From Ruegeria sp. PrR005 (GTDB lineage Bacteria > Pseudomonadota > Alphaproteobacteria > Rhodobacterales > Rhodobacteraceae), in NCBI RefSeq assembly GCF_010500245.1, contig NZ_JAAGOX010000012.1, forward strand, positions 1-64,000: a stretch of 64,000 bases of DNA, given 5' to 3'. This document shows, piece after piece, positions 558-17,974 of the stretch (the stretch's first letter is position 1; every line of letters starts with the position of its first letter). A program made the translations under genes and the position numbers. Below the pieces are notes generated by a model, which saw only the letters and a list, made by a program, of their open reading frames with translations, searched no databases and was not told the DNA's origin.

Positions 558-2771
558 CTAGCTGTTCCAGGAAATCTCTTCCTCGTTTCCACCCATGGCA
601 GAAAGAAAAGCTGAGCGACATTCTTTCAGATCCGGGAAACGGTACTTCCACGGCCGTTTGCCGTCTTCGCTGGGGCGATAAGAGGATACCCCGGCACACA
701 AGGTTTTGAGAGCCTCTCCGAACTCGGCCGGCCCCATGATCTCACCCTGATAACGGCGTTGTTGCATCCAGGCTTCGTATTCCCGGCGGAGATCCTCTTT
801 GCGCACAACTTGAGTAGTTTTCTCCCAAGGTTCGTCTTCAACATCAGATTCACCGTACGGCAAATCTCCCTCACACAAAACTTCATACCACCAGCGATCG
901 GTGCCACGAAGGCCTGAGAGTTTCTGCTCCATCAAACCTTTCGTTTGCGGAGGATTGCGGATTTCTACGCCTTCAGGAGTCTTCCAGCTTTCCAGGAATG
1001 CCAAGAACCCATTGAGGCCACCGTTCATGATCTGATCGTAGAGAGCATCGAAGTACTGCCGATCATTGCGGTGACACGGGGAAACCTCGAATACAGCATA
1101 TCGGCGCTCATCAGCGGTCGCCGGAACAGCCCAGGATTCATTCGTCGTGAATAAGAGCCTGCAGAAACTGTCGATTTGCACCGTGTCCACGTTTTTCCGC
1201 TCAAGAGGCATTTCGGGAGATGTGATCAAGGACTGCACAACCCCCTTGGATTCACGATGCCCTCCCCAGATAGCCTCTTCCACATGAATCAGGATCGCCG
1301 TCGCAAAAGCAGAGTTGAACCTGCCGGTCAGGCGCTCTGACGCCGGAACATGCGCGCAATGCTGGCGCCCAATAATCATCTTCATGATCTCTGCGACAGT
1401 ATCTTTCCCAACGCCTTTCTTGCCCTTCAATACAAGGGCTACACCAGGTTTTTGACCAGGGTTTTGGATGATGTCCGCAAGCCAGGAAAAAATATAGTCA
1501 GCATGTTTCTTGTTCCCAGCCGCTACAGTTTTCTCGATGTGCTGAACAATTAGCGAGCAATCCGCATCTGGATCTGGCTTTTGACCCCAACCAGTCCACA
1601 AATTCAGAGTATCTTGGGGGACTGAACCTTCGGGCTTGAACACCAATCCGCCCTCATATGTTCTACGCGCCGAGTGCATCATCCAGGCACTGCCCAGGGT
1701 GGTTCCGCCATGCTTGCGATTTGCGAACAATTCCCGAAAAGAGCTTGTGCCGATGAAGTCGATGTCTCCGTTCCGTCTGAACTCCGCAATCACGACCTTA
1801 CTGCCCATCCGAACCAGCGCGAAGCGGTCGTTCAGTTCGCGAATGCTTTTATGGATAGTCCCATCGGCAGCAACGGGATCATCGTCAAAGCCATCTTGGT
1901 CATCGTCGAACTCATCATCAATATCGTCATTCCAGCCATGCTTCTTAGCTTCAGCGTAAAGAGTAGCAACAGTAACCCCTCCCTCCATGTTCTCATCAAT
2001 CGAGACCCACATTTTTTCCACTTCAGTTGGGTCATACCCGGGATAGCCAGCGCACCAGCCTTGAATTATCTGCAACCCATCATCAGATCCGCCGAACCCC
2101 GCTTTGAATGCCATAATCACGCGCATCCATCTGTCGTAGTTCAGGTCATTCGGAATCCAGAACAACGCTTTTCTGGCTTTGCTCGGATTTCTCGAATGCA
2201 TTGCCGTGCTGTATTTTGCCGCAGCTTTGGGTTCGGGACGAAAAAGGCTCGGTAGCTTGGCGCTTAACAGTCTCGCACACCCCAAATCAGAGGAAACGCA
2301 TTCGTAAATGCCGGTATTGCTAACGGCACCGGGCGCAATAACGTATCCGCCCTCCGCGCGCACATCGATACCAGGAGCAATCTTGTCCTGGGAGTTTCTT
2401 ACGCCGTCTTGGTACTCATAGTAGAGATGGAGTCCACCGCTAGCAGTTTTGACAACGGCCCCAGCGTCCTCTTGGTGCAACCCGAGACGCTCGAACTCTT
2501 TTACGCCATTCTTTCCGTTCTTGACGTCCAGATCAATCACTACGAACCCACTTGCAGAACCGGTTACTAAGCCGGGGACTGCGTCAGGATATTGGACCCA
2601 GAGTTCACCAATTTCACCTGGGTCGATAGTCGCCCTGTTTTTCCACTTCACGTAAGGGCTCTTGTTTTCTGGATTGCAGGGAAACACTGGGCATCCTGCT
2701 TCGGCCGCTGAAAGAGCTGCCTTCAGGTTTTGGGACCGACGGTCCGTTGACTTCTGCGTTTTCTTGCTCAT
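558..2771 (-). CDS. primase-polymerase / helicase replication protein of a phage or satellite element
   Basis: About 737 aa. The N-terminal half is a bifunctional primase-polymerase domain: a DLD metal motif near residues 80-82 (VVIDLDV), GGLHLYY near 115, and AEGGYVIAPG near 140. A primase C-terminal-like region follows (DRWMRVIMAFKAG), then an acidic linker (DDEFDDDQDGFDDD). The C-terminal half is a D5/P4-like SF3-type ATPase with Walker A GKKGVGKDT near 450-458, a Walker-B-like ILIHVEEA and a TTN sensor followed by an RR pair. Such proteins initiate and unwind element DNA at its own origin. ATG at 2771 is preferred, and a GTG at 2807 would add 12 residues. Neither start has a strong Shine-Dalgarno. 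The codon use is AT-richer than the host genes. Confidence 0.85.
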   Translation of the reverse strand: MSKKTQKSTDRRSQNLKAALSAAEAGCPVFPCNPENKSPYVKWKNRATIDPGEIGELWVQYPDAVPGLVTGSASGFVVIDLDVKNGKNGVKEFERLGLHQEDAGAVVKTASGGLHLYYEYQDGVRNSQDKIAPGIDVRAEGGYVIAPGAVSNTGIYECVSSDLGCARLLSAKLPSLFRPEPKAAAKYSTAMHSRNPSKARKALFWIPNDLNYDRWMRVIMAFKAGFGGSDDGLQIIQGWCAGYPGYDPTEVEKMWVSIDENMEGGVTVATLYAEAKKHGWNDDIDDEFDDDQDGFDDDPVAADGTIHKSIRELNDRFALVRMGSKVVIAEFRRNGDIDFIGTSSFRELFANRKHGGTTLGSAWMMHSARRTYEGGLVFKPEGSVPQDTLNLWTGWGQKPDPDADCSLIVQHIEKTVAAGNKKHADYIFSWLADIIQNPGQKPGVALVLKGKKGVGKDTVAEIMKMIIGRQHCAHVPASERLTGRFNSAFATAILIHVEEAIWGGHRESKGVVQSLITSPEMPLERKNVDTVQIDSFCRLLFTTNESWAVPATADERRYAVFEVSPCHRNDRQYFDALYDQIMNGGLNGFLAFLESWKTPEGVEIRNPPQTKGLMEQKLSGLRGTDRWWYEVLCEGDLPYGESDVEDEPWEKTTQVVRKEDLRREYEAWMQQRRYQGEIMGPAEFGEALKTLCAGVSSYRPSEDGKRPWKYRFPDLKECRSAFLSAMGGNEEEISWNS

Positions 2772-2908
2772 GGCTCTGGTTTTTGGTTTAGAATCCGATG
2801 CAAGCACTCATTTTTACGAGGCGAGGCTTTGCGAGATATTGGTTTCAAGATTGTCGCGCGGAGAGCCGTCAACTCGTGATAAAATTCCACGCGTGAGGGC
2901 TCAATTCT

Positions 2909-3145
2909 TCACTCTAGAAAGTGATTGCAAACGATAAACCAGTGCGTATCTCCGTGCTCATCGTCCTCAAACTCCAAAGTTGCAACGACGCCTGCCCAAG
3001 GCTCATGGTTCTCTGAAAGTTTCTTACGATACTTGTCCTCAGTATTCGCAAAACTCTCGGCAAATTCCGGTTTGAACCCGGCATGAATTAGTTGATTGAG
3101 ACGCGCTTCGCGCATGGTTTTCCAAAAGCTCTCAGAGATTTTCAT
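2909..3145 (-). CDS. small hypothetical protein of the element (78 aa)
   Basis: Not recognised. It is a soluble, acidic 78-residue protein with the N-terminal stretch ISESFWKTMREARLNQLIHA and a His/Asp-rich C-terminal part (EFEDDEHGDTHWF). The start is supported by AAAAGGAT about nine bases upstream of the ATG. It lies between the primase gene and the AlpA-like regulator on the same strand, which suggests an element accessory gene. There is no signal peptide or membrane segment. The function is unknown. Confidence 0.6.
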   Translation of the reverse strand: MKISESFWKTMREARLNQLIHAGFKPEFAESFANTEDKYRKKLSENHEPWAGVVATLEFEDDEHGDTHWFIVCNHFLE

Positions 3146-3509
3146 CGGGTTTCATCCTTTTAGACGTTTTTCTTTGAAACACTGGCCACGAACAGACCAA
3201 AAGATGATCCAAACGAGGCGTATGTGGGTTGAGGTATTGAGGGTGTTATTCGCAGTTTGAGATGGGGTGGCGCTCTCGGCGAATGCGCGGCAAGCACACT
3301 TGGCCCAGAAGTAATGTCAATTCCGGAAAATAGTCTGTTTCTCGGGACAGTAGTCACCAGCTAATGTGACACGGCGGCTGCCTCGGAGCGCATGCCCTCC
3401 AAAAAAACCGACGCGTGCCAAGGCGCCTAGGCCGAAGACCAGACCCGTTCGCTCTCGCGTTTGCCCACCCGAGCCCGCACGTTCCGATATTCCGCGGATG
3501 GGGTTGAGG
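3146..3509. other. gap inside the element with no confident gene
   Basis: 364 bases between the 78-aa gene and the AlpA-like gene. Minus-strand frames here (3160-3357 and 3317-3559) and a plus-strand frame (3366-3644) lack good ribosome binding sites and recognisable sequence. The part from about 3360 to 3500 is clearly GC-richer than its flanks, so the element looks mosaic. It could hold a promoter for the primase operon, but no clear -35/-10 pair was seen. Confidence 0.4.
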
Positions 3510-3755
3510 CTATTGGGAAAAAACCATGTGGCTGTCGATCCACTCATCCAAGTCAACACGGCGGTAGACTACACATCCACTCATTCGGGCAAATTTTGGA
3601 CCATCTGCGCGACGCCCTTGCATGCGGAGCTTGGCGAGAGTTGACTCCGAAACGCCGCAATACTCTGCGGCTTGCTTCGGCCTCAGGTACTTTGCACCAT
3701 TCGATAAGTTTCGAGTGCTTTCATTATTCGGCAGCAGTCGATCATTTCCATCCAT
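3510..3755 (-). CDS. AlpA/excisionase-type helix-turn-helix protein
   Basis: 81 aa. Residues about 22-75 form a MerR/AlpA-like winged HTH: YLRPKQAAEYCGVSESTLAKL is the recognition-helix region, and the protein ends with VVYRRVDLDEWIDSHMV, the classic tail of this family. AlpA-type proteins of P4-like elements act as directionality factors or activators of integrase and excision genes. GGAG sits eight bases before the ATG. Its position between the integrase side and the replication gene matches P4/PICI-like satellites. It is DNA-binding by family; whether it drives excision here is inference. Confidence 0.8.
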   Translation of the reverse strand: MDGNDRLLPNNESTRNLSNGAKYLRPKQAAEYCGVSESTLAKLRMQGRRADGPKFARMSGCVVYRRVDLDEWIDSHMVFSQ

Positions 3756-3868
3756 TGCTTTGTCTCCATGTGTACGCTGAGAAGATCATGCAATGGAAAG
3801 GAATTGGGCTGCATACACCGAGCAGGCGCATGCAGCATGTACAGAAATATTCTATAACTTACAGACCT

Positions 3869-4516
3869 CTAGTCGAACAAGCTGTCAATCCAGTCAAACC
3901 GAATCTTGACGTAGAGTTCTTTCTTCTTTGGCTTGGTCAAGATGGATTGGATCGACCCTCGGCTCGTCAAATCTGTGTACGGTCCGAGCGCATGAAAAAT
4001 GATATCACTTGCGGCAAGGCCGTCACCTTCTTCATTCCGAGTAAGGTTTAGCTCATATCGATCTTCAAGAAGCTTTCCAACGTGCAGGATCATGTGATCA
4101 CGTGCCCACGTTCCAGGGTCAGGCTCCCCCCGAGCCCTCTTGGGCCGAACGAGAACACCTTTCACAATATTGACCGCTGCTTGCTTCAACTCCGCTGGCG
4201 GCTCAATCCAATGGTTGATATATCCAGATATCACTTCTGTAAGAAGTTCAAACGCCTGCTGATGTTTTTGCGCGCGACGAACCAACTCCTCACACGACTT
4301 TTTTGGAATTTCAATCAAGTCAGGATATTCAGTTGAATAATCGAGACCCAAAGCGTACCAGGTTTCGGTCCAGACAGGTCCGCTTTCAAAAACACCCGCA
4401 TGAGAGTATTTCGATATCTCGTCTTTTGCCACTTCCAAGGCTTCTTCAAAACCTAGCGCAATAATTTCATCGACAGATCTGACAGCCCAGCTTTCATTTT
4501 CCTGATCAAAGCTCAT
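3869..4516 (-). CDS. hypothetical protein of the element (215 aa)
   Basis: Not recognised. A soluble protein starting MSFDQENESWAVRSVDEI and ending VKIRFDWIDSLFD, rich in acidic and aromatic residues, with no membrane segment. ATG at 4516 is chosen because GGGGGAG lies about seven bases upstream. An in-frame start at 4606 would overlap the integrase stop by 4 bp but has no clear ribosome site. It lies directly downstream of the integrase on the same strand, so it may be co-transcribed. The function is unknown; element cargo or regulation are both possible. Confidence 0.6.
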   Translation of the reverse strand: MSFDQENESWAVRSVDEIIALGFEEALEVAKDEISKYSHAGVFESGPVWTETWYALGLDYSTEYPDLIEIPKKSCEELVRRAQKHQQAFELLTEVISGYINHWIEPPAELKQAAVNIVKGVLVRPKRARGEPDPGTWARDHMILHVGKLLEDRYELNLTRNEEGDGLAASDIIFHALGPYTDLTSRGSIQSILTKPKKKELYVKIRFDWIDSLFD

Positions 4517-4602
4517 GAATCTCCCCCCTCGCTGTGGTAATTGCACCGCGAGATCAATGAAACAAAGTGCCGAAAGTGTGGCGTTTTTTGGACACGCTTG
4601 GG

Positions 4603-5679
4603 TCATCTACTTGACCGAAATGACAACTCCTTGCATACGGTCTGCATCGCAGGCCGGAGCGCATCCAGACTAGGTTTCACATACCGCTGTCCAGTAATGG
4701 ACAAAGGCGTGTGGTTCAGCAAGCGGCCGACAACCTCTTCCAGAATTCCCGCCTCCATTGCGATGGTCGCGAAAGTCCGTCGATGCGCGTGCGGGCTCCA
4801 TTTCATCCGCTGCGGCGCGCTGAGGCGACCGTCCGTCCTTTTCGGTGATGGGAACACCCACTGCCGATGCAAACCTTTCATTGGTGCAAGGATTTCGTGA
4901 TGCAACTGCAGGATCGGCAGATCGAAGCTGCGTCCGTTTTTGGTCATTGGCAGATGGATACGGTCCTCGTGCACGTGCCTCCACTCCAAGGTCAATGCTT
5001 CGGTCTTTCTCAGCCCTGTGAAGAGCAGCAGCTCATAGAACACGGTATGAATCGGGTTGTGCAGCCCTTCGATCTCGTGCCGCCACTCCACCAGGTCGTC
5101 AATGATAGTCCCAGCTGGCTGCTCATCATACCACTCGATCGCCAAGGTCGGCGATTCCGGCAGATCGTGAACACGACGAGCATGGTTCCAGACCGTCCGA
5201 AAATACTTCAGAAGATGGTTAGCCGTCGAAGGGGTGGCAGCAAGAAACCTATGGCGCTCCACGACCATCGATTTGGTAATCTCATCGAGTGGCAGGCGCA
5301 GCCAATCCTTGAGATGAAGCTCGAACTGCTGACGCATAGTCAGCTTATGCGTATCTGATCGAAGCTTGGGTCGCGCCAAATAAGCTTCCATCGCCACTTG
5401 CAGGGTCGGAGCACCAATCTGGATTTGCTTTCCCGCACCCCTGCCCCATTCAAGCGCGAACCCGAGAGCGGTCTGTCGGGCCACCTCCGCTGTGATCACC
5501 GGATAACGCCCGATTAGCACCCTCCGTGTCTGACCACCGACATCCTTTTGATAGTACCACGTCTTGGCCTTCTTACCGACGAAGAGCACGAGGCCTCGGA
5601 CCTCGCTATCCCAGTGTTTGTCTGTACCCGATTTTGTCTGTGGAACCTTGCGGGCAAAGGTCTCAGTGAGTTTTGGCAT
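4603..5679 (-). CDS. tyrosine recombinase / integrase
   Basis: 358 aa, full length for a tRNA-targeting integrase. The catalytic set is complete: Arg224 (TGLRKTEAL), Lys247 (TKNGR), His297-x-x-Arg300 (HAHR), His323 (LLNHTPLSI) and the nucleophile Tyr333 (GQRYVKP). The N-terminal 90 residues hold an arm-binding DUF4102-like domain and the middle a core-binding SAM-like domain. It catalyses site-specific integration and excision of the element. Its 5' end is 124 bases from the truncated tRNA-Gly, the expected place for the attachment site. No Shine-Dalgarno is visible at the ATG. It is probably active, since no residue is missing. Confidence 0.93.
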   Translation of the reverse strand: MPKLTETFARKVPQTKSGTDKHWDSEVRGLVLFVGKKAKTWYYQKDVGGQTRRVLIGRYPVITAEVARQTALGFALEWGRGAGKQIQIGAPTLQVAMEAYLARPKLRSDTHKLTMRQQFELHLKDWLRLPLDEITKSMVVERHRFLAATPSTANHLLKYFRTVWNHARRVHDLPESPTLAIEWYDEQPAGTIIDDLVEWRHEIEGLHNPIHTVFYELLLFTGLRKTEALTLEWRHVHEDRIHLPMTKNGRSFDLPILQLHHEILAPMKGLHRQWVFPSPKRTDGRLSAPQRMKWSPHAHRRTFATIAMEAGILEEVVGRLLNHTPLSITGQRYVKPSLDALRPAMQTVCKELSFRSSR

Positions 5680-5802
5680 TTTGTCTGTTTTTTGTCGGTA
5701 TTAATCGGAAAACTGTGGAACCCATCGGAACACAGAAGAACGATATAAGTCAATAATAAGAATAGCTTGAAATCTAAGTGAAAGGATAGGAAAAGTATAT
5801 CA

Positions 5803-5844
5803 CTGGCTTGGAAGGCAAGGGTCTTACCATTACACAACGCCCGC
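5803..5844 (-). pseudogene. 5' half of tRNA-Gly(UCC); element/chromosome junction (att site)
   Basis: Read on the minus strand this starts with the acceptor 5' strand GCGGGCG, continues with a D-arm containing AATGGTA, then CTTGC, the anticodon loop CTTCCAA (anticodon UCC) and GCCAG. After that the sequence becomes AT-rich and there is no variable loop, T-arm or 3' acceptor strand. The two anticodon-stem strands CTTGC and GCCAG have one mismatch. This suggests that the strand after the loop comes from the element and that crossover occurred in the anticodon loop. The tRNA cannot function from this end. An intact copy could be rebuilt at the other end of the element. Confidence 0.75.
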
Positions 5845-6154
5845 TCGACGTTTGCCGGTAGTATTCCATTGATTTTCGGGCGTCAAGTTAGGAACGACAA
5901 CTCTCTGCCAGCTTCGAAAACAGCTGTATATCCTTGACCGAAAAGAGCCGGATTCAAAGCGTCAACCAACGCGTTTTTTAGCCCCAAGCCCTGCCCGAAG
6001 GTGCCAAACCGTCCCCTGCCCGCCTCGACCGGTTTCCTTCTGACGCCGCCTCGGAGTCAAGGGCCTGCCTTGCCGCACTCAAGCTGAATGTCTTGGCGCT
6101 TCCGTCCGGTTGGCAGGTCGACCACTTCTCGACTGTGCGTTCGAGCCTGTCGTG
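5845..6154. other. host intergenic region beside the att site
   Basis: 310 bases between the tRNA-Gly remnant and the metallophosphoesterase gene, which ends at 6155. On the minus strand this would be the promoter region of the tRNA-Gly gene and the downstream region of the 6155-10942 operon. No convincing open frame or hairpin with a T-tract was seen. The base composition returns to host-like GC here. Confidence 0.45.
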
Positions 6155-7090
6155 TCACTTGCCGACCAGATCCTTGCGAACAAGTCGTCCGATCGAGCGC
6201 GGAAGGTCGTCGAGCTCGACTGGTGTCAGGAAATCGGGAGACTGGTAGGCGGTCTCTTCAATGCTGCCATCCCCGGCGATCTCGACCAAAGAAAAGGCTT
6301 TGGGGGACGGTCGGTTCGCACCGATCAGCGCACGCGGGCCAGAGCCCAAGCAGGATTGCGAGACCATCAAGATGTCGTCCACAACACCCGGGTAATAGGC
6401 ATGGTGGTGTCCGCTCAGATACAGGTCCACGCCATGCCGCACCAGAAGCTCGTGCAACTTGGGGTCCCCTATCACGTCATCACGCCGCTTTTCCGCAAAT
6501 GGCCAGAGCGGCAGATGGCTGAACAGGACAACAGCCTTGTGTCGGCTGCTCTGGCGTTTCAGCAGATCGTCGAGCCAGTCGAACTGGTTGTCCGACAGGG
6601 CGCCGGTGGTGGTCACGTCCAGGGAAACCAGCAGCACGCCGCGCACTGACAGGGCATAACGAAAGGGGAAATCGGCCTTGTCCACAAATGTCAGGTCAGG
6701 CTCTCGGTCGCCCCAGACCCTGGCAAATATCGCCCGTTCGCCTTCGAACCCGCGATAGGCAGAGGCGTCGTGATTTCCCGGCGTGACGACAAAAGGAATG
6801 CCGGCCCTGGCCAAGGGATTTGTCACCGCGTCGTCGAACGCCGACCACATGGCGGCAACCTGGTCGGCCGAAAGATGCGGATTGACCTGTTGGCCCGCGA
6901 CCATATCGCCGGTGCTGATGACCAGATCGGGTTCAAGCGCGACGATGCGAGCGATCCCGTCGCGGACCGACTTGCTGTATTTGGTCGATCCGTAGCCGCC
7001 GTTCAGGTCCGAAATCACCGCGATCCTGAGCGGCTCTGCCCGGACGCCACCGGCAACGAGGCAGAGCACGAGCATCACAATCCGCAGCAT
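6155..7090 (-). CDS. exported calcineurin-like metallophosphoesterase
   Basis: 311 aa with an N-terminal signal peptide (MLRIVMLVLCLVAGGVRA). Metallophosphoesterase motifs are in order: ISDLN at 27-30 (usual DxH replaced by D-x-Asn), GD at 61-62, GNHD at 105-108, His192 (SHLP) and GHHH at 227-230. The family hydrolyses phosphomonoesters or phosphodiesters with two metal ions, here probably in the periplasm. It is the last gene of a five-gene minus-strand run and starts 1 bp after the stop of the kinase-like gene, so the two are translationally linked. The substrate is unknown. The Asn at the first metal ligand may change metal choice. Confidence 0.85.
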   Translation of the reverse strand: MLRIVMLVLCLVAGGVRAEPLRIAVISDLNGGYGSTKYSKSVRDGIARIVALEPDLVISTGDMVAGQQVNPHLSADQVAAMWSAFDDAVTNPLARAGIPFVVTPGNHDASAYRGFEGERAIFARVWGDREPDLTFVDKADFPFRYALSVRGVLLVSLDVTTTGALSDNQFDWLDDLLKRQSSRHKAVVLFSHLPLWPFAEKRRDDVIGDPKLHELLVRHGVDLYLSGHHHAYYPGVVDDILMVSQSCLGSGPRALIGANRPSPKAFSLVEIAGDGSIEETAYQSPDFLTPVELDDLPRSIGRLVRKDLVGK

Positions 7091-7091
7091 G

Positions 7092-8534
7092 TCAGCCTCC
7101 GGCGCAGTCCAGTTGAGCTCCGGTCACCTTGCCCGTGACAAAGAAAGTCTCCGGCTCCAGATCGAACAGCAACTCTCCGCGACGACAGGTTTCGGAGAGA
7201 ATGCCAAAGGCAAGAGCGGTGTTCTTTACGATCTGGGCGACTTGCCGGTCATCCAGCCCGAAGTTGTCGCGCACATAGGCCAGAAGCGGCCCTTGAGCGC
7301 CGAAATCCGCATCCAGCCTGGCCAGCTTGGCATAGGTCGTCGCAGGGAAGTGACGCAGCTTCTCCAGCATCCGGGTCGATTTGGTGAAATTGGCGTATTC
7401 CACCCGCCCGCCCGCATCGTTGTCGTTGAGGTGGGTTCGCTTGACCCGGATTGCCTGTTCCGGCGCCGTACCGCGATCCTTGCCATGATTGTCTGCCTTG
7501 TGACTGCGGACTTCGCCATTCTCGACCCACATCCAGCGCACCTTGTAGTCGATGTTTCCGATCCGGTCCTGCTGGCTGAAGATAAAGTCGAGCAGAACGA
7601 TATTGGCAATATCCGTCATCCAGTACGCAACCTGCCGCGGATCCACATCGGCCCCCATGTCGCGGCGGATCTGCTTGGTCTTGACCGCCTCGGCAATGCC
7701 CTCGGCAATTGCCTTGTCTATCGGGTGACCTGACCGCAGCGCCAGGAATGGGGCGGTTTCCTGAAAATCGAGGTTCTGCCCCTTGCCCCAACCTGACGCC
7801 CGTGTCCCGTTGACCTCGGTGCCATAGCGGGACCCGGGGCTGTCCAGCAAGGCGCCATACAGGGCCTTGCGGTCCGACGTGAAAAGCTCGTCCACGGGTT
7901 TGTAGACCGAGGGGGTCTGGTCGGCATCGACAAGCATGCGCCAGCCGGCATGGTTCATTCCAGACGAATGAGAGGTGCCAGACAAGGCCAGCCCCCGCGT
8001 TGCCACCTCGTCCAGATGCGTGATGCGGTCCATGCTGCGCCAGACAGCGGGAGGAACGCCGATGTCGGCCTCGAAATAGCGCGAGAGGTGGTAGTAGAGC
8101 AGTGGCGAGGGCGAGAAGGTGCCGCTGGTGCCCTTGGCATTCATGGTCGGCTTGAACTTGGCCAGGTCTTTGTGGGCCAACTGGGACGCGGACTTGCCTT
8201 CGGCACAGGCGTGACGTTCAAAACCCTGCCGGTCACCGGCATAGGGACCCTTGGAGATGTCGTATATCCTCATGCCGGGGCTCGTGCTCCAGGTTTTGGG
8301 ACAGAGCGCGACGGTCGCGGCATAGAAGTCGAGGGCGCAATAGGCCTCCTCGGCCTCCAGGTCGTGTTTTGAATAGACCGCGCCGGGCATCGGCGTGATG
8401 CGGACGCAGCGTTCGGTAACGCCGTTCGGGCTGGTGAACAGCGTCTCCTGGCCCTTTACCGCGTCCGAGGCCAATGCGGCGCCCGCGAACATCCCGGCGC
8501 AGACCAGCAGGGTGGGAAACAGGGCGCCACTCAT
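7092..8534 (-). CDS. exported protein with HipA/Fam20-like kinase motifs (unknown function)
   Basis: 480 aa with a signal peptide (LLVCAGMFAGAALA). I do not recognise a named family across the whole length. Residues 315-327 read LDFIFSQQDRIGN, which resembles the catalytic D-R-x-x-N loop of HipA/Fam20/CotH-type atypical kinases. NDND at 370-373 could be the second metal motif. A Cys-rich N-terminal part (Cys43, 66, 78, 110) fits an extracytoplasmic protein. It overlaps the upstream phosphatase-fold gene by 4 bp (ATGA) and is followed 1 bp later by a metallophosphoesterase, which supports a phosphoryl-transfer role. The kinase assignment is inference from motif and context only. Confidence 0.5.
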   Translation of the reverse strand: MSGALFPTLLVCAGMFAGAALASDAVKGQETLFTSPNGVTERCVRITPMPGAVYSKHDLEAEEAYCALDFYAATVALCPKTWSTSPGMRIYDISKGPYAGDRQGFERHACAEGKSASQLAHKDLAKFKPTMNAKGTSGTFSPSPLLYYHLSRYFEADIGVPPAVWRSMDRITHLDEVATRGLALSGTSHSSGMNHAGWRMLVDADQTPSVYKPVDELFTSDRKALYGALLDSPGSRYGTEVNGTRASGWGKGQNLDFQETAPFLALRSGHPIDKAIAEGIAEAVKTKQIRRDMGADVDPRQVAYWMTDIANIVLLDFIFSQQDRIGNIDYKVRWMWVENGEVRSHKADNHGKDRGTAPEQAIRVKRTHLNDNDAGGRVEYANFTKSTRMLEKLRHFPATTYAKLARLDADFGAQGPLLAYVRDNFGLDDRQVAQIVKNTALAFGILSETCRRGELLFDLEPETFFVTGKVTGAQLDCAGG

Positions 8535-9184
8535 TTCGGACAGATCGCTGCTTGTTCGGCGGCCGAGATCTTCAGTGCCGGGTTGACCTTGAAATGGTCG
8601 AAGTGATGATCAATCCAGGCATCGCACCCATCCGAGCAATCGGCGCCGTTGCGGGCCTCGTTCCAGTATTTCTTGGCGCGTTCCTCGCTCCAGCCGCAGA
8701 ATTGCACCAGCGCCATTGCCGAGACCGCGCCCGAAGAATGGACACCCCACATGCAGTGGACATACATCGGCCCCGTTCCGGGGTTCTTGATGATATCATA
8801 GAGTTCTTTCATCACGTCGTCGGGACGCGTCGACTTGCCCGCCGCATAGGTCAACTGGCCGCTGCTACAGGAGGTTTTGCCGTACTCTGTATGTTTGCCG
8901 AAATCGATGTAGCGGGCAGCGGAAAACCCGGACTCGCACAACTGCTTGCGCTGCGACCCGGACAAACCGGTCCTTGCCTTGTCGCCCCCCTTGAACCCGC
9001 CCCGGTAGAGCACGCCCGACAGCACCGGCCGCACAAAGGCCAGCCCGTCGGCGGGCGTGGGGTTGGACCGGGCGATCATCTGATCATGCCCCGGTGCGCC
9101 CGAGCGAGCCTTGAAATCGGCGGCCATAGCAGGTGCAGCCAGAAGGACAAGTGCAATTCCTGCGCGACGGATGATTGAAAACAT
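8531..9184 (-). CDS. exported dual-specificity/tyrosine-phosphatase-fold protein with altered active site
   Basis: 217 aa. ATG at 9184 gives a clean signal peptide (IIRRAGIALVLLAAPAMAA) and has AGGA eight bases upstream; a longer frame from 9262 lacks both. The segment VLYRGGF near 58 and the P-loop HCMWGVHSSG near 143-152 match the DSP/PTP family (HCxxGxxR[ST]G). The nucleophile Cys144 is kept, but the essential Arg is replaced by Ser150. It could be a pseudo-phosphatase that binds phosphorylated ligands, or an enzyme with another Arg supplied in trans. It sits between the propeller gene (70-bp gap) and the kinase-like gene (4-bp overlap). Confidence 0.7.
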   Translation of the reverse strand: MFSIIRRAGIALVLLAAPAMAADFKARSGAPGHDQMIARSNPTPADGLAFVRPVLSGVLYRGGFKGGDKARTGLSGSQRKQLCESGFSAARYIDFGKHTEYGKTSCSSGQLTYAAGKSTRPDDVMKELYDIIKNPGTGPMYVHCMWGVHSSGAVSAMALVQFCGWSEERAKKYWNEARNGADCSDGCDAWIDHHFDHFKVNPALKISAAEQAAICPK

Positions 9185-9254
9185 CTGGTAATCCTTCACT
9201 AGATTTTCCTCCTCGTTCCATCCTGACCCTTTCAGGACAATTCGTCTGTCGGAC

Positions 9255-10136
9255 TTAGTCAATCCTGTATGTCAGCAGCCGTGATTTCTTGCCGTCGTCG
9301 GTGACGACATGCAGCACGTCGCCCTTCGAAGAGAGCGCCACTCCCTCGGCATTGCTCACCGGATGCAGTTTCTTCTTGTCGGCGTCCATCAGCGCCCATC
9401 CCCTTGCGGTCATGCTGGACAGGTCGAGGAAGAACACCGCCTGTCCGGTGTCGCTGGTGATCCAGACGCCCTTTCGCCGTGCGTCCCATGCCAGGCCGGA
9501 CAGGTCGAGCCTGTCGTCTTGCGCCGCCGCAGAAACGAAGCCCATTGCCGCCGACATTTCCTGTATGCGGACAACGCGCGACAAATCGGGGGCCAACTCG
9601 ATCAGCAACCGGGGCCTGCGTTCTTTCACAAGCAATACGGCGCCGGTTTCGGGGTCGACCGTGATCCCTTCCAGCCCGTTGTTTTCATCCGCCTGGAAAT
9701 GGGCGGCGAGCCCCTCTGCCCCCGGCAGGGCCAGTAACCGGAACCGGGTGAGGGTCCCGTCCGGGGCAAGTGACAGGATCTCGGTCGTATCCTCGCGCAC
9801 CATCAGCAGACGTTGCCGAGGCATATCCTCTGCAATGCCTTCCAGTTGGGGTTCTGCGGACAGGTCGTCGGGTTTTCCCGGCCTGCCCTTGTGATCAAGG
9901 CGGAACAGACGGGCGACGTTGTCGCTTACCGACCAGAATCCCCCATCGGCCGCGGTGCTGAGACCAGACGGTTCGGAAAACCCGATGGACGGTTCGGCAA
10001 TCTCTCGCGACTTGACCAGCGACAGGGACATCTCCGCCCAGACAGGTCCCGCGACAAGAAGGTAAAACGCCGGGGCGACCGACATTAACCAGGTGCCAGG
10101 CCAATTCCGCGGAGAAGACTTTGTCGGTTGGGTCAT
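9255..10136 (-). CDS. SdiA-regulated-type beta-propeller protein, exported
   Basis: 293 aa from the ATG at 10136, which has GAGG a few bases upstream. An upstream extension of the frame only reads through the preceding gene in another frame and is rejected. The N-terminus has a hydrophobic signal (WLMSVAPAFYLLVAGPVWAE). The body has repeating strands such as FSEPSGLSTAADGGFWSVSD, LEGIAED and NNGLEGITVDPETGAVLLVK, typical of the YjiK/SdiA-regulated propeller family, also described as esterase-like phytase-like. The biochemical activity of the family is not established. It starts 15 bp after the DUF4956-like gene and is clearly in one operon with it. Confidence 0.72.
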   Translation of the reverse strand: MTQPTKSSPRNWPGTWLMSVAPAFYLLVAGPVWAEMSLSLVKSREIAEPSIGFSEPSGLSTAADGGFWSVSDNVARLFRLDHKGRPGKPDDLSAEPQLEGIAEDMPRQRLLMVREDTTEILSLAPDGTLTRFRLLALPGAEGLAAHFQADENNGLEGITVDPETGAVLLVKERRPRLLIELAPDLSRVVRIQEMSAAMGFVSAAAQDDRLDLSGLAWDARRKGVWITSDTGQAVFFLDLSSMTARGWALMDADKKKLHPVSNAEGVALSSKGDVLHVVTDDGKKSRLLTYRID

Positions 10137-10150
10137 TGCCTCGTCACGGT

Positions 10151-10942
10151 TCAGTCGACATGCCAATCGGAAATTCCACTGGCCTTGTCTTCGGCCAGGC
10201 GGGACATTTCCCTCTCCAGCGCGGAACGGCGCGCTCCGTTCACACCGGTGACCACATAGTGGACCGTCGACTTGAACTTGGTCCGACTGATGGAAATCGT
10301 GCGAAAGCCGGCTTTCTGCAATTCGTCGCGCACCACCTGCATCGATTCCAGCACCGGCCTTTTCTTGTTCGAAAACTGGATATCCACGCCAAAGTTGGCA
10401 GGCCCACCCAAGACGTAGAGAATGGTAAACGCGCTGGCCGTGGTGATCAGGGCAATCACCGGCAGGTCGAGCCCGATACACAGGCCGATCAGGGTAACAA
10501 GGATCAGACGCATCGTGTCGCCGGCACTGTCATCCGTCTTGAACCGCAAGAGCCCCCCAAGACCGAACAGCACAAAGCCGATAAGATAGCCGTGATGCAT
10601 GATGAGGAAACCGACGACCATGCCGATCAGCGCATAGACGAACAAGGCGCGCGGTGTTTCGAAATCGCTTCTTGTTTTCCGGTTTGCGCTCAGCACGGGG
10701 TGATAGGCGATGACCGCAGTCATCACAGAAGTCTCGACCAGCGCCAGTCCGAATTCGAGCAACTCGCGTGGCTGGAGCAACTGCCCCCACCCACGGCCGC
10801 GCACCGTTATTTCCGGCAGGCTTGCCTCGAGCCCCGTTGCGACCTGTGCCAGGGCCGGCGACACGGCAAAGACGGTCAGGACCAGCAAACCCAACATTCG
10901 CACGCCAAAGATGACGATACCGGTTTTCCGCTTCATGTGCAT
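10151..10942 (-). CDS. DUF4956/MgtC-like integral membrane protein
   Basis: 263 aa. A hydrophobic start (VRMLGLLVLTVFAVSPALA) is followed by about four more membrane segments between residues 60 and 175. The core GFVLFGLGGLLRFKTDDSAG is like the DUF4956 signature, in which a short hydrophobic segment leads into (I/L)RF(R/K)T. The soluble C-terminal domain (residues 180-263) contains FGVDIQF and an ACT-like alpha/beta pattern. DUF4956 genes commonly neighbour VTC-domain polyphosphate polymerase and CotH-kinase genes. Here the neighbours are kinase-like and phosphatase-like instead. GAGG lies seven bases before the ATG. It is the first gene of the tight operon. Confidence 0.75.
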   Translation of the reverse strand: MHMKRKTGIVIFGVRMLGLLVLTVFAVSPALAQVATGLEASLPEITVRGRGWGQLLQPRELLEFGLALVETSVMTAVIAYHPVLSANRKTRSDFETPRALFVYALIGMVVGFLIMHHGYLIGFVLFGLGGLLRFKTDDSAGDTMRLILVTLIGLCIGLDLPVIALITTASAFTILYVLGGPANFGVDIQFSNKKRPVLESMQVVRDELQKAGFRTISISRTKFKSTVHYVVTGVNGARRSALEREMSRLAEDKASGISDWHVD

Positions 10943-11069
10943 CTGTGCGCCTCACTTTGTCCCCTTGCGAATGAAGGTAGCGTCGGAAATGACCTCGGGC
11001 GAGTCTTTCGAAGGCAGGGTGCCATTTCCATTCCGGTCAGAAATCGGGTGTGATGGAGGGAGCAAATCC

Positions 11070-11213
11070 TCATGTCGTCAGCCCGATCCCGGTCGTCAGC
11101 CCGACCCCGGCACCGGCGGCCATCATGGCCCCATCTGCCATCCGCCTTGCACCATAACCGCCGACCGCCACAGCGATGACAAAGGCCAGAACGGCTGTCA
11201 CCAGTTTTGGCAT
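11070..11213 (-). CDS. 47-aa small membrane protein
   Basis: A very short gene: ATG at 11213, TGA at 11070-11072. The product starts MPKLVTAVLAFVIAVAVGGY and ends with a Gly/Ala/Thr-rich tail (AAGAGVGLTTGIGLTT). It has one hydrophobic helix, then an Arg-Arg pair, then a glycine-rich stretch that could be a second short helix. GGAGAGGGG stands directly upstream at good spacing, stronger than most in this window, which argues for real translation. It lies 16 bp after the 84-aa membrane gene and 127 bp before the DUF4956-like gene. No family is recognised. It is easy to miss because of its length. Confidence 0.6.
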   Translation of the reverse strand: MPKLVTAVLAFVIAVAVGGYGARRMADGAMMAAGAGVGLTTGIGLTT

Positions 11214-11229
11214 TTGTCTTTCCCCTCTC

Positions 11230-11484
11230 CTAGCTTCGCGCGGCAAAGCCGCAGATCAGCCTGAGAAGGATCAGGTTCAAGAGAGGCGACAGGGCCGCAA
11301 GCCAAAGCCGAACCGCGTCGCCGAACAGGTCCACAAACAGGTTCCACGGTAGCCCGAGCGGAACCAGGAACACGGCCGCCAACGGATCGCGCTCCTGTCC
11401 GAACCAGCCAAACGTCCCGACAAACAGCAGAAACAACGCGGCCAGGTAAGCCAGCGCAAAGATCAGGGTGACAGTTTTGCACAT
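11230..11484 (-). CDS. 84-aa membrane protein
   Basis: Two hydrophobic helices (LIFALAYLAALFLLFVGTFGW and a second from about residue 58, LWLAALSPLLNLILLRLI) separated by an amphipathic segment with FGQERDPLAAVFL. AAAGG lies about nine bases upstream of the ATG. It is not a recognised family, but the two-helix hairpin and its place in a co-directional run with the 47-aa protein and the DUF4956-like membrane protein suggest a membrane complex. An overlapping longer frame (11198-11491) has no membrane logic and is rejected. Confidence 0.65.
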   Translation of the reverse strand: MCKTVTLIFALAYLAALFLLFVGTFGWFGQERDPLAAVFLVPLGLPWNLFVDLFGDAVRLWLAALSPLLNLILLRLICGFAARS

Positions 11485-11563
11485 GGTTCATGCCTTTGGC
11501 CGCGATCCTTGCCGTCCTGTCGTTGGACAGGCGCAGAGTCGCGCCGACCGACCTGACTGCGGC

Positions 11564-12103
11564 TCACATCCGCCCATTGCGAAAATTGAACACCTGACCT
11601 TGCGAATTGGAGCCGCAGATCACGTGCCTGTGGCCCGATGCGAGCTCGATGTAAAAGTTGTCTGCCCCTTCCTGCCCGGCGTTGACGATATGTACGTCAT
11701 GACGGCCGACGCCCCAGCTTGAGGAGGCCTCGTTTACGCAGGACTGCGCCGCGGCTGCGGGAACCTTCACCCCCGCGATGTCCCGCTGCTTGTGGGCCAA
11801 GCGGTTGCTGCGCTCCTTCTGGCCCGCGTCAAATCCCTGACCGTAAGCAGTGCTGCTGTGGCGCGAGTCATAGGGTTCGTTGTGCAGCCCGTCGCGATAG
11901 CCACGTTCGAAAGCTGCCGTTTCGTTTTCGCCATTCGGCCTGTAGCCTTCCTGGTAATGGTTCTTGTTGTGGGCCAGCGCGGCCAATCCGATAATTGCGA
12001 TGGCGCCGGCAATCGCCGCTGCCTCGTCATCGGCCCGGACCGGTGCTGTTGACATGGTCAGGGCAACAGACATGGCCGAAACGCCAAGAAGAAAACTTCT
12101 CAT
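11564..12103 (-). CDS. secreted hypothetical protein (179 aa)
   Basis: It has a signal peptide (LLGVSAMSVALTMSTAPVRA) followed by a second hydrophobic stretch (AAIAGAIAIIGLAALA) that may be a membrane anchor. The middle holds two related motifs, ERGYRDGLHNEPYD and YGQGFDAGQKERSNR, a short Y/F-x-x-G-(Y/F)-x-(D/A)-G repeat. The C-terminus (HRHVICGSNSQGQVFNFRNGRM) resembles small periplasmic proteins of Rhodobacteraceae with a Gly-Asn-rich tail. Two Cys residues could form a disulfide. It is first in the co-directional series leading into the DUF4956 operon, but a 79-bp gap follows, so operon membership is uncertain. Confidence 0.7.
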   Translation of the reverse strand: MRSFLLGVSAMSVALTMSTAPVRADDEAAAIAGAIAIIGLAALAHNKNHYQEGYRPNGENETAAFERGYRDGLHNEPYDSRHSSTAYGQGFDAGQKERSNRLAHKQRDIAGVKVPAAAAQSCVNEASSSWGVGRHDVHIVNAGQEGADNFYIELASGHRHVICGSNSQGQVFNFRNGRM

Positions 12104-12286
12104 CTCTCAATCCTTTCAGATAACCAGGATGCATCCCCAGACAACACCCGGACATTCCAGTTGTTTCATCGTGATCCTCCCCCGGCTATCCGATGTGCGC
12201 AGCGAATAGCCGCTTTTCGCAAGCCGGTGCGTCAAGGCGTTGTCTTTGAAGGAATCTGATCCGGTCGACCGCGACCGTGCCGGTTG

Positions 12287-13270
12287 TCAGACCTTGCGCC
12301 GTCCGACAAAGGCCTGCGATGGCAGCTCGTGGAACCTGTCGCGATAGGCGGCAGCAAATCTGCTCAGATGATTGAAACCGCAATCAAGGGCGACTTCCGT
12401 TACAGAGGCTTCGTCGTTCGCGTCGCTCAGTCGCTTTCTGGCTGCTTCCAGGCGAAAGCCGAGCAGTGCCTTTGACGGCGTCGTTTCCAGCACATGTTTG
12501 AAAGCCAATTCCAGACTGCGCATGCTCACCCCGCAGACCTTTGCGACTGAGGGGATATCCTTGATCTCTCCGTGGGATACCCGCATGCATTCCAGCGCCA
12601 TCCGCACCAAGCGATAGCTGGACGAGTCGGTGTGGCAGACAGGAGCATGGAGAACGCCGGCCTCCTGGAGCACGTCCACGATCTTGTCGGCTATGAACTC
12701 GGCCCAGACCGCGCGACCGGCCGGATTTCCGATCCGTACCGATCCCCGGTCGATTTCCGCGTGCAGTGTCCGGACAGTCTGAATCAATTCGGCGGCAGCG
12801 GCAGACCGACTGCCCCTCATCCGCAGCGACAGCGCGTCGAACTCGATTGCGGCAGGCAGGCCCAGTCCAAGCCGGTCGAAGGCCGCACGCATCAGATCGG
12901 TCGAAATGATCAGCGGGACGCCCTTGAACATCGGGGCTTTCCCCGCGCTGACCCTCGTATGGCGGCGGTTGGGAGAGAAGAAGAGCGCTTCGCCTGTCGC
13001 GGCTTTTACGAGGCCGGTCTTGCTTTCGCACTCGATCGCGCCGCTGAGCGGAACAATGAGGCTGTTGGCCATGTATTCGGTGACGTCAACGTCGTGGCCG
13101 GACGAAATCACCTCGCCCACGGTCAAACCGCCAAGGTCAAACCGTGACACGCGGGCAAGAACCTCGGGACGGCGCGCCATGACCAACTTGTTCGGATTGG
13201 AAAACAGGCGGGATTCCACCACCCGCGCCTTGGCTCCGCGAAAAGATACTTCTGTCCTGAAAAAACTCAT
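12287..13270 (-). CDS. AraC-family transcriptional regulator
   Basis: 327 aa. The C-terminal 100 residues hold the two HTH motifs of the AraC family: SVAKVCGVSMRSLELAFKHV and VTEVALDCGFNHLSRFAAAY, followed by the usual F-R-x-x-x-G-x-x-P-like end (YRDRFHELPSQAF). The N-terminal domain (residues 30-180) resembles the AraC-binding-like domain with an ALFFSPNRRHTR segment. It binds DNA in response to an unknown small ligand. The target is not visible, but the gene precedes the secreted and membrane genes at 6155-12103 on the same strand, so it is the natural candidate regulator of that cluster. Confidence 0.9.
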   Translation of the reverse strand: MSFFRTEVSFRGAKARVVESRLFSNPNKLVMARRPEVLARVSRFDLGGLTVGEVISSGHDVDVTEYMANSLIVPLSGAIECESKTGLVKAATGEALFFSPNRRHTRVSAGKAPMFKGVPLIISTDLMRAAFDRLGLGLPAAIEFDALSLRMRGSRSAAAAELIQTVRTLHAEIDRGSVRIGNPAGRAVWAEFIADKIVDVLQEAGVLHAPVCHTDSSSYRLVRMALECMRVSHGEIKDIPSVAKVCGVSMRSLELAFKHVLETTPSKALLGFRLEAARKRLSDANDEASVTEVALDCGFNHLSRFAAAYRDRFHELPSQAFVGRRKV

Positions 13271-13649
13271 CTAGCTCTCCCCAAGAACCTAGATCGGGTG
13301 AACTCGTCAAAACACTGCTTTCATGGTAGATTGCAAAACCTGGATGGATCAAGCATGTTCTTGTTTTGCCAATATTTCTGGCCTCTTTCACTGCCTCAAA
13401 AACGCGAGATTTGAGCGCGAATCTCGGGCAGACAAGCCCGTGCCCTCCGAGAAGGCTCGACAACACCGGATGGGGGCAAGCTAAGCCGCTCATCACAGGT
13501 CTGGCCAAAAAACTCCGGCCAACTGCGCGAAACGGATACTCCTTTCGCAAAAGGGATCGCGCCGAAACAGACTTGACCTAGTGTTGTTGGAAGCGATCGG
13601 AAAACCCGTTCCAAACCGGAGACCATTCAAGAGTCTGGAGCTTTCACCC
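13271..13649. other. divergent intergenic region (araC-like / SH3 protein)
   Basis: 379 bases between the AraC-type gene (leftward) and the SH3-domain gene (rightward). It should hold promoters for both. Short overlapping open frames on both strands (for example 13366-13581 plus, 13396-13626 minus) have no ribosome site or recognisable sequence. No clear repeat was found. Confidence 0.45.
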
Positions 13650-14576
13650 ATGCTGCACCGTCGTCTGCTAAGCTGGACATTGCTTGGCGCCTGCGCCCTG
13701 GCATCCGCGGCCTCGGGCCAATCTGCGGAATTCATGCGGAACGAATGTTCCAGCGCCGGCCAGACCTATTTCCGGGATTTCACCGCAGCGACTGAAATGC
13801 AGTACAACGGCCGTCGCGTGGATGGCACGCACGCGGTCAACGGGCGCATTTTCCTGGAAACCCGGTTCGAGGATTTCGCCTGCTCCTACGACCCCACCGG
13901 TCGGCGCATCGTGGAATTCTTTGCCGAAGGCAGGACGCAGGCCAGCCCCCTTCCCGGTGGTGGTGGCGCCACCGATCCCGGTGGATCTCGGATCGCCACG
14001 GTGGCAGGTGTCCCCCAGAATGACGTGCTGAACGTGCGGAGCGGGCCTGGCACGAATTACCGGGTCATCGGCGCCCTCGGCAACGGAGACCGCGTGCGCA
14101 AGCTGCGCTGTCAGACGCCAGGCCGCACCACATGGTGCGAGATCGAGATGATGACCGACATGCGCGAGCGGGGCTGGGTCAGCGCCCGCTACCTGTCGGG
14201 CGGCGGATCGCACGGGGGCGCTGCAACGCAATTGCCAAGCAAACCACCCGCATCCGGCACTGGCCAGGTGACAACCGCAGTCATCCGCTTTCCCGCCGGG
14301 GCCACGGGAACCGAATTCACCGAGCAGATCGAAAACGGGGCTGTCCGGCGCTATGTACTGGGGGCGCGTGACCAGCAGTTTCTCTATCTTCGTGTCGGCT
14401 CTGGCAACCCAGGCGTATCGTGGCGAATCCTGAACCCGAACAAGACGCTGTTAAGTCAGGGGACAGCGGGCCAAGACTATCGCGGCCAACTCTGGCAGAC
14501 CGGCGATCACATCATCGAAGTCCACAATCGCAGCGGCCGACCCCAGACATACAAAGTGATTTTGAATATCAAATGA
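13650..14576 (+). CDS. exported SH3-domain protein with a C-terminal PPC-like domain
   Basis: 308 aa. ATG at 13650 has GGAG nine bases upstream and begins a signal peptide (LLSWTLLGACALASAASG); the frame opens earlier at 13581 but those residues are not signal-like. Residues about 110-180 are a bacterial SH3 domain (NVRSGPGTNYRVIGALGNGD and RGWVSARYL) and may bind peptidoglycan or protein partners. The last 100 residues (FPAGATGTEFTEQI and QLWQTGDHIIEVHNRSG) resemble pre-peptidase C-terminal beta-sandwich domains. Two Cys pairs fit a periplasmic location. It is transcribed alone, away from the AraC-type gene. Confidence 0.82.
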   Translation: MLHRRLLSWTLLGACALASAASGQSAEFMRNECSSAGQTYFRDFTAATEMQYNGRRVDGTHAVNGRIFLETRFEDFACSYDPTGRRIVEFFAEGRTQASPLPGGGGATDPGGSRIATVAGVPQNDVLNVRSGPGTNYRVIGALGNGDRVRKLRCQTPGRTTWCEIEMMTDMRERGWVSARYLSGGGSHGGAATQLPSKPPASGTGQVTTAVIRFPAGATGTEFTEQIENGAVRRYVLGARDQQFLYLRVGSGNPGVSWRILNPNKTLLSQGTAGQDYRGQLWQTGDHIIEVHNRSGRPQTYKVILNIK

Positions 14577-14973
14577 CGTATCGGAAAGGAAAACGAAGGG
14601 TTTGAACCGGTTGCGAATTCCCGTTTTCCAACCGGAACGGGCGGATCGCAGGTGAGGTGTTTGCAGAATTGTCCTTCGCACCACCGGCAATGACGCAGGG
14701 CCCCCAGCGCACGGGTGAGCGCGAGCAGCGACGCGGCAAGGCGGTCTGTCGCGAATGTGGACGCCTCGGTGGACATGCGTGCAAGGGGCATTTCAGGTCA
14801 GGAGCAAACCGTCCCTTACAGGGCGTCGTCTCATGCAACCGGTCAGCGGGGATCAGAGACATGCATATCGGTCGCAACCTGTTTCTGCACAAAGGGTGTT
14901 GCGGACCAGTTCAACAGGCATCCGACGTTGATCGATCGGACGGATCATTCGCGGCTCAGAGCAAGCATGCGGT
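14577..14973. other. intergenic region without a gene
   Basis: 397 bases between convergent genes. Open frames here (14657-15166 plus, 14507-14791 minus) have no ribosome site or family resemblance and overlap real genes at their ends. A weak inverted repeat CCGGTTG...CAACCGG near 14608-14636 could be a terminator stem with a long loop. Nothing else is seen. Confidence 0.4.
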
Positions 14974-15300
14974 TCAGCGGAAAGGAATTCTGAAGAAGGT
15001 GAAGCTGTTGGTCTGGGTAATCATCGCCGCTCCGGTTTCCGCCATCAGGCTTGCCATCGCTGCGCTTCCCGTCGGGCAGGCAACCAGATCCGCTGCGTCG
15101 TCGAGGAGATCGACGGTGAATGCCGTTTCACCGACAAGCTGGCATTCATCTGCTGCGCTGCGGTAGCCGCGAACGAAAGTCAATTCCGGGTCAGGTTCGC
15201 TGACTGCACCTTCGGTCGAGGTTTCGACGCATCCAGTCAGGGCCAGAGCCAAGGAAAGGGCAGCCATGCCAACAATTGGTTTTTCGAGTTGCATCCGCAT
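14974..15300 (-). CDS. small lipoprotein of unknown function
   Basis: 108 aa from the ATG at 15300, chosen because GGGAG lies five bases upstream. The N-terminus is a lipoprotein signal with lipobox LALTGC, so the mature protein begins at that Cys and is membrane anchored by lipid. The rest contains RGYRSAADECQLVGETAFTV and three further Cys residues, with a hydrophobic C-terminal half (ACPTGSAAMASLMAETGA). It follows the 173-aa exported protein by 2 bp on the same strand, so the pair forms an operon. The function is not known. Confidence 0.72.
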   Translation of the reverse strand: MRMQLEKPIVGMAALSLALALTGCVETSTEGAVSEPDPELTFVRGYRSAADECQLVGETAFTVDLLDDAADLVACPTGSAAMASLMAETGAAMITQTNSFTFFRIPFR

Positions 15301-15302
15301 TT

Positions 15303-15824: not shown

Positions 15825-15942
15825 CTCTGTCTCTCCTGTCATTCCATGTGGTTCAATTGCATTGTTCATAGGTGTAACCGCCGAATTCGATCCAGTTCCT
15901 CTCGACATCGCTGACAACCTTCCCCGCCTGATGATCCCTTTT

Positions 15943-16164
15943 TCATAACGAGACTCTGCGGGTTGAATTTGGGGATTCTGGTGCCCTGTTTGGCGCAAGC
16001 GCGCCGGGCGCGGAGCGGACCCGATCGCATTGCAGCTCCAGTGCCATGTTGCCAGCCAGCATCAAGGCTTTGGAATTGGGCGGTCCGCTGAAACTCCAGT
16101 CAGCCGTTGCCGCGGATGACATCATGAGTGAGAGGGCCGCACCGGCGATCAGATATCTCTTCAT
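15943..16164 (-). CDS. short exported protein, possibly truncated
   Basis: 73 aa with a signal peptide (RYLIAGAALSLMMSSAATAD). The mature part opens with WSFSGPPNSKALMLAGNMALELQCDRVR, which looks like a folded small domain, but the remainder (SAPGALAPNRAPESPNST) is proline- and arginine-rich and reads like a shifted frame. A frameshift or early loss of the native C-terminus is possible. A ribosome site (GAAGGG) is close to the ATG. It is a separate transcription unit on the minus strand. Confidence 0.45.
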   Translation of the reverse strand: MKRYLIAGAALSLMMSSAATADWSFSGPPNSKALMLAGNMALELQCDRVRSAPGALAPNRAPESPNSTRRVSL

Positions 16165-16238
16165 AGGGGCCCTTCTTGGCCGTTTAACAGCATTTTGTCA
16201 GGCAGTTGAAAACCCCCTGACGAGGACACGCGATCGGC

Positions 16239-17944: not shown

Positions 17945-17974
17945 GCGCCAATGCTGATGCAAACCGGATTTACG

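Follow-up and report, generated by a model that had tools for sequence, protein, structure and literature searches.

A conserved operon in Ruegeria sp. PrR005 that pairs a predicted Fam20-like kinase fold with a probable pseudophosphatase

Gene content and conserved order of the operon

The window analyzed here is a stretch of 64,000 nucleotides from Ruegeria sp. PrR005 (contig NZ_JAAGOX010000012.1, positions 1 to 64,000), and it carries an operon of five minus-strand open reading frames (ORFs). These encode P1, a 263-aa membrane protein that is DUF4956-like below the family cut-off (10151–10942); P2, a 293-aa propeller of the SdiA-regulated or phytase-like kind assigned by Pfam (9255–10136); P3, a 217-aa exported protein with the dual-specificity phosphatase (DSP) fold and a probable pseudophosphatase (8531–9184); P4, a 480-aa exported protein with a Fam20-like kinase fold (7092–8534); and P5, a 311-aa exported calcineurin-like phosphoesterase that resembles purple acid phosphatases (6155–7090). 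The layout is that described in an earlier first-pass annotation, including the 70-bp gap between P2 and P3, the 4-bp ATGA overlap shared by P3 and P4, and the 1-bp spacing between P4 and P5, except that the gap between P1 and P2 measures 14 bp rather than 15 bp. Homologues found in other genera argue that the ORFs are coding, and those of P3 and P4 share 58–85% protein identity in all loci except the divergent L016 and L048–L050. N-termini and transmembrane (TM) segments were judged from hydropathy and not with a signal-peptide predictor. By this measure, a signal-like hydrophobic stretch is present at the N-terminus of all five products, that of P2 being the weakest, and P1 contains an additional four TM-like segments, in agreement with the export signals noted earlier.

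Gene order was compared across 26 mapped loci, namely the window, L002–L018, and L048–L055. Two partial copies (L019 and L057), a decayed copy (L056, in genome G017), and a short contig from genome G031 that carries P3 and P4 were not counted. P3 immediately precedes P4 in 23 of the 26 loci, and P5 immediately follows P4 in 22. L004, which stops just past P4, is scored as lacking P5, and the metallophosphoesterase close to the P4 of L016, at 26% identity, was not scored as P5. A P1 homologue is found in 16/26 loci, four of which have it downstream on the opposite strand, and a P2 homologue in 12/26. P1 upstream is outside the visible region in L006 and L008, which start near P3. An overlap filter in the tblastn recount hid P1 in the window and L051, and the P1 counts come from other locus mappings.

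The block is rearranged in several loci. The order is P3-P4-P5-P1-P2 in L053 and L054, and P3-P4-P5 followed by P1 on the other strand and then P2 in L055, whereas L010, L012, and L013 have P1 after P5 on the other strand. Linkage that persists through such reshuffling argues for shared function more strongly than co-linearity by itself. When neighboring genes of the 26 loci were clustered by BLASTP, each of the P1 to P5 families appeared in between 11 and 23 loci, and a single family of SH3 proteins in 13. Because this clustering recovers the five families along with the SH3 family, and all other clusters reach at most 6 loci, the five-gene block is not a chance arrangement. A tblastn recount raises two small neighbor families to 11 and 9 loci.

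The metallophosphoesterase and propeller labels of the first-pass annotation both hold above Pfam cut-offs. P5 matches Metallophos (PF00149) with 75.4 bits against a cut-off of 21.5, and its residues D28, D62, N106, H107, H192, H228, and H230 are kept in 16/16 aligned sequences. Its motif I is D-x-N, with the Asn present in all 16, where the usual calcineurin-like motif I is DxH, and purple acid phosphatases make up 14 of its 19 PDB sequence matches. P2 scores 52.4 bits with the SdiA-regulated family (PF06977; cut-off 21) and 40.4 bits with a phytase-like family (cut-off 27.6).

Membership of P1 in DUF4956, as proposed earlier, is not established. P1 scores 11 bits with this family (PF16316) against a cut-off of 30.6, and DUF456 scores higher, at 16 bits. 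Among 11 aligned P1 sequences, all match DUF4956 at E ≤ 1 (best 0.002) and five match DUF456 (best 2.6e-5). A profile comparison of P1 with DUF4956 by hhalign was no better than that with an unrelated control, and we rejected DUF4956 as an established label. PF16316 has no match in the window's own genome; two same-genus genomes have a gene above the DUF4956 cut-off that is no close relative of P1.

Predicted folds and conserved residues of P4 and P3

P4 has no match in Pfam, at E ≤ 1 or at E ≤ 10, or in NCBIfam, and the CotH model (PF08757) likewise fails to match it at either threshold. Fold searches place the predicted structure of P4 in the Fam20 kinase fold, and in this model P4 is structurally closest to the Fam20 secretory-pathway kinases. 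CotH is absent among the 50 matches listed from each of two fold searches with P4, which excludes nothing. Two results on which the earlier interpretation had been staked beforehand, a kinase fold for this 480-aa protein and conservation of gene order beyond close relatives, thus both came out in its favor.

Residues K128, D323, R324, N327, and D371 are invariant in 20/20 aligned P4 sequences, at identities down to 29%, and the triplet Asp371-Asn372-Asp373 never varies among them. In the model, Lys128 lies in strand 122–129, Asp323, Arg324, and Asn327 lie in the loop after helix 299–319, and the triplet sits after strand 362–369. With the register set by eye, these sites line up with FKPM, DFLMGNMDRHH, and HLDNGRG of Fam20C, motifs whose letters were verified in Fam20 sequence. 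The catalytic-loop Asp of Fam20 (Asp299 in Hydra Fam20; PMC5865150) and its ion-pair Lys therefore have counterparts in D323 and K128, the latter again in a register judged by eye. The D-R-x-x-N motif, which the first-pass annotation had called a kinase-like loop, is a catalytic-loop candidate on these grounds. Cysteines are also conserved, with Cys78, Cys110, and Cys450 present in 20/20 sequences, Cys66 and Cys477 in 19/20, and Cys43 in 18/20. The P4 of L016 has lost Cys43 and Cys66 together, as a disulfide pair would, but that of L003 has lost Cys43 alone. The 20-row alignment (A7) omits L004, L006, L008, L011, L013, and L017, and a 17-row alignment (A5) omits L008, which has a stop codon in the named stretch. 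Of two 16-row alignments, A1 omits L006 and L050–L055, and A3 omits L048 and L051–L055.

P3 is predicted to adopt the DSP fold, and Pfam protein tyrosine phosphatase (PTP) families match it below cut-off. Where DSPs have HCX5R, P3 bears HCMWGVHSSG, and the Arg is replaced by Ser or Ala in 23/23 P3 loci, with the His-Cys kept. The DSP fold proposed earlier for this protein is therefore retained, but its phosphatase reading is not, and P3 is a probable pseudophosphatase. That the Arg has been lost in every P3 locus, even at 35% identity, suggests that a non-hydrolytic role of the PTP fold outside the cytoplasm has been selected for. Because P3 lacks this arginine, dephosphorylation is more likely to be carried out by P5.

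Distribution and genomic setting

P4 relatives occupy 18 loci in a GTDB-based collection, where Seohaeicola, Gemmobacter, Rhodobacter, Rhodovulum, Rubrimonas, Tateyamaria, Oceanomicrobium, and an uncultured Shimia are represented among the carriers, judging by record titles, and more occur in further genomes. Within the family Rhodobacteraceae, P4 is found in 18/394 genomes, one of which holds a decayed copy, leaving 17 full-length carriers. P4 occurs in 1/385 genomes of a class sample and 2/398 of a phylum sample, the window's own genome being included in both, and in 0/4 same-genus genomes. Its distribution is rare and patchy. P3 is present at E < 1e-100 in 15/394 genomes, all 15 of which are among the 17 full-length P4 carriers; the two carriers without P3 hold the divergent copies L048 and L049, and two weak P3 matches lie elsewhere. 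P3 and P4 also occur as a pair in G871, a genome from another alphaproteobacterial family, with 35% identity for P3 and 29% for P4.

Two P4 copies stand apart. The L016 homologue (7980–9347; 48% identity) occurs without P3 on a contig binned as Aquificaceae, a doubtful bin given that the neighboring genes look gammaproteobacterial by eye. In G017 (L056, 7029–7979), P4 and P5 are decayed, with internal stops and only fragments remaining, and the module seems to be in the course of being lost.

The operon appears to lie in an accessory segment, because long DNA matches of the query 10943–20000 to four same-genus genomes start at or slightly past a tRNA-Leu (17032–17117) and because the G+C content (GC) is lower at 6–17 kb (0.57–0.62) than at 17–30 kb (0.61–0.71, mostly above 0.63). 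The interval 10943–17031 has intermediate GC up to the tRNA-Leu and no long DNA match in the four same-genus genomes, and no repeat of the 3′ end of the tRNA-Leu was found within the window. On the other side of the operon, a phage-integrase-family gene (4603–5850) lies beside an apparent 5′ half of a tRNA-Gly (approximately 5845–5798, minus strand), which was seen by eye and not called by ARAGORN. GC is 0.51–0.53 over positions 1–6000, and an element seems to be integrated at the 4603–5850 region with the operon just outside it. Carriage of the operon as mobile-element cargo was considered and rejected: searches of 72,556 plasmid and 50,697 phage records yielded no P4 match, and the plasmid set none for P3, although these sets may lack records very close to the window's genome.

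A recurrent neighbor is an exported protein with an SH3_3 domain (13581–14576, plus strand), relatives of which occur in 16/26 loci. Its C-terminal stretch of ~100 residues has no Pfam or PDB match and is common to an exported-looking family (window 13581–14576; L053 13844–17685; L002 9157–11001), several members of which have SH3_3 and which often stands in tandem beside the operon. A suspected likeness of this C-terminus to a lysozyme inhibitor was dropped, as the PDB search gave chance-level rows only. A 179-aa exported-looking protein with no family assigned (11564–12103, minus strand) has relatives in 9/26 loci, and small lipoprotein-like proteins occur near the operon in 11/26. An AraC-family gene upstream of the operon (12287–13270, minus strand) is a possible regulator; like an alpha/beta hydrolase, an ABC ATPase, and unmatched proteins, it is found as a neighbor in at most 6 loci. 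Just upstream of P1, a possible 47-aa glycine-rich membrane peptide (11071–11213, minus strand) was noted by eye.

Possible functions and comparison with known systems

The interpretation that we tentatively favor, at a little short of even confidence, is that the operon encodes an accessory phosphotransfer module of the envelope, composed of a kinase from a new Fam20-like family, a probable pseudophosphatase that binds phosphorylated groups, and a phosphatase. The computations show the folds of P4 and P3, the Arg loss of P3, the intact P5 motifs, and the conserved linkage, while catalysis by P4, its substrate and donor, and the roles of P1–P3 and P5 are inferred. P4 would most likely modify an exported protein or a glycan at the cell surface with phosphate or another group derived from a nucleotide, and the SH3 proteins encoded alongside are candidate substrates. 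P3 would most likely bind P4 or the phosphorylated product without hydrolysis, whereas P5, as a dimetal phosphoesterase of the purple-acid-phosphatase type, would remove phosphate. P1 may anchor the complex or couple it to the inner membrane, and P2 would be a propeller of the binding or esterase type. Of the extracytoplasmic phosphoryl-transfer system put forward by the first-pass annotation, the kinase fold, the export-like N-termini, and the gene order are retained, but the phosphatase role of P3 and the handling of polyphosphate are not.

Several observations weigh against this interpretation. Sequence-level proof that P4 is homologous to Fam20 was sought and not obtained. Comparison of A7 with four Fam20 sequences by hhalign sets the DR motif of P4 on that of Fam20 independently of the register judged by eye, but weakly, with p 0.0069 (p 0.78 for a control of A7 against P5) and a probability of 5.5%. 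Full-length Smith-Waterman scores of P4 against four Fam20 sequences are reached by 83, 71, 419, and 23 of 1000 shuffles. When segments picked after the model was seen were shuffled against one Fam20 sequence, the counts were 5/5000 for the catalytic loop, 652/5000 for beta3-alphaC, and 1762/5000 for the metal loop. The Fam20C model (PF06702) matches neither P4 nor any of the 17 or 20 aligned sequences, and PDB sequence searches with P4, A5, and A7 returned no Fam20 row. PF06702 was also found in 0/150 genomes of a phylum sample, a search that is uninformative alone because 14 control genomes gave 0 as well. Furthermore, the P4 of L016 lacks a signal-like N-terminus, P4 stands without P3 in 3/26 loci (L016, L048, and L049), and no functional data on any homologue were found in the literature searched. 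What would donate phosphate outside the cytoplasm is the chief difficulty; the periplasm is not known to contain an ATP pool.

The alpha-C region bears on the same question. According to one study, Fam20 kinases need an acid close to alpha-C, which is Asp152 in Hydra and Glu213 in C. elegans, and Fam20A, which has Gln at this position, is a pseudokinase (PMC5865150). Catalytic activity of P4 is uncertain because residues 129–160, which correspond to this region in a register set by eye, contain no conserved acid (best 12/20). The main rival explanation, which we consider unlikely but the strongest of the alternatives, is that P4 is a pseudokinase forming a non-catalytic binding pair with P3, leaving P5 as the sole phosphate enzyme of the set. 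The missing conserved acid in the alpha-C region, the degeneracy of P3 itself, the standing of P3-P4 as the tightest pair (23/26 loci), and the lack of any known periplasmic ATP are all consistent with this view. However, the Lys, catalytic Asp, Asn, and metal-loop Asp of P4 are invariant to 29% identity, and a scaffold need not keep them.

Somewhat less probable still is that P4 is a Fam20B-like glycan kinase acting on an envelope or exopolysaccharide sugar. Equally unlikely is an extracytoplasmic writer-reader-eraser system in which P4 is a Fam20-class kinase, P3 reads the phosphorylated product, P5 is the phosphatase, and P1 perhaps supplies the donor. Polyphosphate or inositol-phosphate handling, with P4 as a small-molecule or lipid kinase, is improbable, as VTC (PF09359) is found in 1/14 carrier genomes, on a contig other than that of the operon (polyphosphate kinase was not searched for), and PI4K is absent and PI3K present only at E ≥ 1.2 among the 50 Foldseek matches listed, out of 120, for P4. 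The VTC search, and a parallel one for CotH, covered 14 of the 17 full-length carrier genomes, with G031, G224, and G302 omitted; CotH (PF08757) was found in 0/14, with controls positive in 3/14.

The conserved exported set suggests an undescribed way to add and remove phosphate outside the cytoplasm. In titles and abstract openings of top search results, which included few subscription journals, we found no description of the operon or of a bacterial Fam20 relative besides CotH and Legionella effectors. These are also the bacterial kinase-like folds of the FAM20/CotH group named in a survey that covers kinases of Legionella, humans, and amoebae and treats the FAM20 cluster as eukaryotic- or Metazoa-specific (PMC9758233). 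An exported bacterial Fam20-fold family, if real, would bear on the origin of such kinases and would raise the question of how phosphotransfer could be supplied in a compartment presumed to lack ATP.

The best Foldseek match of P3 is TpbA, a periplasmic DSP of Pseudomonas aeruginosa (E 5.2e-5). The two share the DSP fold, but TpbA keeps the HCX5R arginine that P3 has exchanged for Ser or Ala. STYX-type pseudophosphatases combine the DSP fold with a broken HCX5R motif, as outlined in PMC10211241; STYX lacks the Cys, whereas P3 keeps His-Cys and lacks the Arg, and is bacterial and exported-looking.

In the literature, FAM20/CotH is described as a group of atypical kinases (PMC9758233), CotH as resembling Fam20C (PMC12189002), and, in streptococci, clostridia, and bifidobacteria, DUF4956 genes as neighbors of those for CotH kinase and polyphosphate polymerase (PMC7112168). 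The last agrees with the VTC and CotH neighbors that the first-pass annotation had named for DUF4956. In another family member (L062, 6621–9772), DUF4956, VTC-domain, and PHO4 phosphate transporter genes stand in a row, which reproduces the DUF4956-VTC pair but has PHO4, not CotH, as the third gene; this array suggests that the role of DUF4956 there is linked to phosphate or polyphosphate. The operon resembles the CotH/DUF4956/VTC system in that a kinase of the atypical FAM20/CotH group would adjoin a DUF4956-type membrane protein, the label of P1 being below cut-off. It differs in that P4 has no CotH match and that a DSP and a metallophosphoesterase are present instead.

P4 is like Fam20A, Fam20B, and Fam20C in overall fold, export-like N-terminus, conserved cysteines, invariant Lys, catalytic-loop Asp in a DR motif, and metal-loop D-N. 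It is unlike them in being bacterial, in the missing PF06702 match, in having no apparent alpha-C acid, in its operon with a DSP and a phosphoesterase, and in having an Asn after the catalytic Asp where Fam20 has DRHH. Such an Asn is found in HipA and PI4K. HipA, HipT, and CtkA, which are cytoplasmic toxins or a secreted effector, are lower structural matches to P4 than Fam20. Should the writer-reader-eraser set prove true, prokaryotes would possess an equivalent of the Fam20 kinases that act in the secretory pathway of animals.

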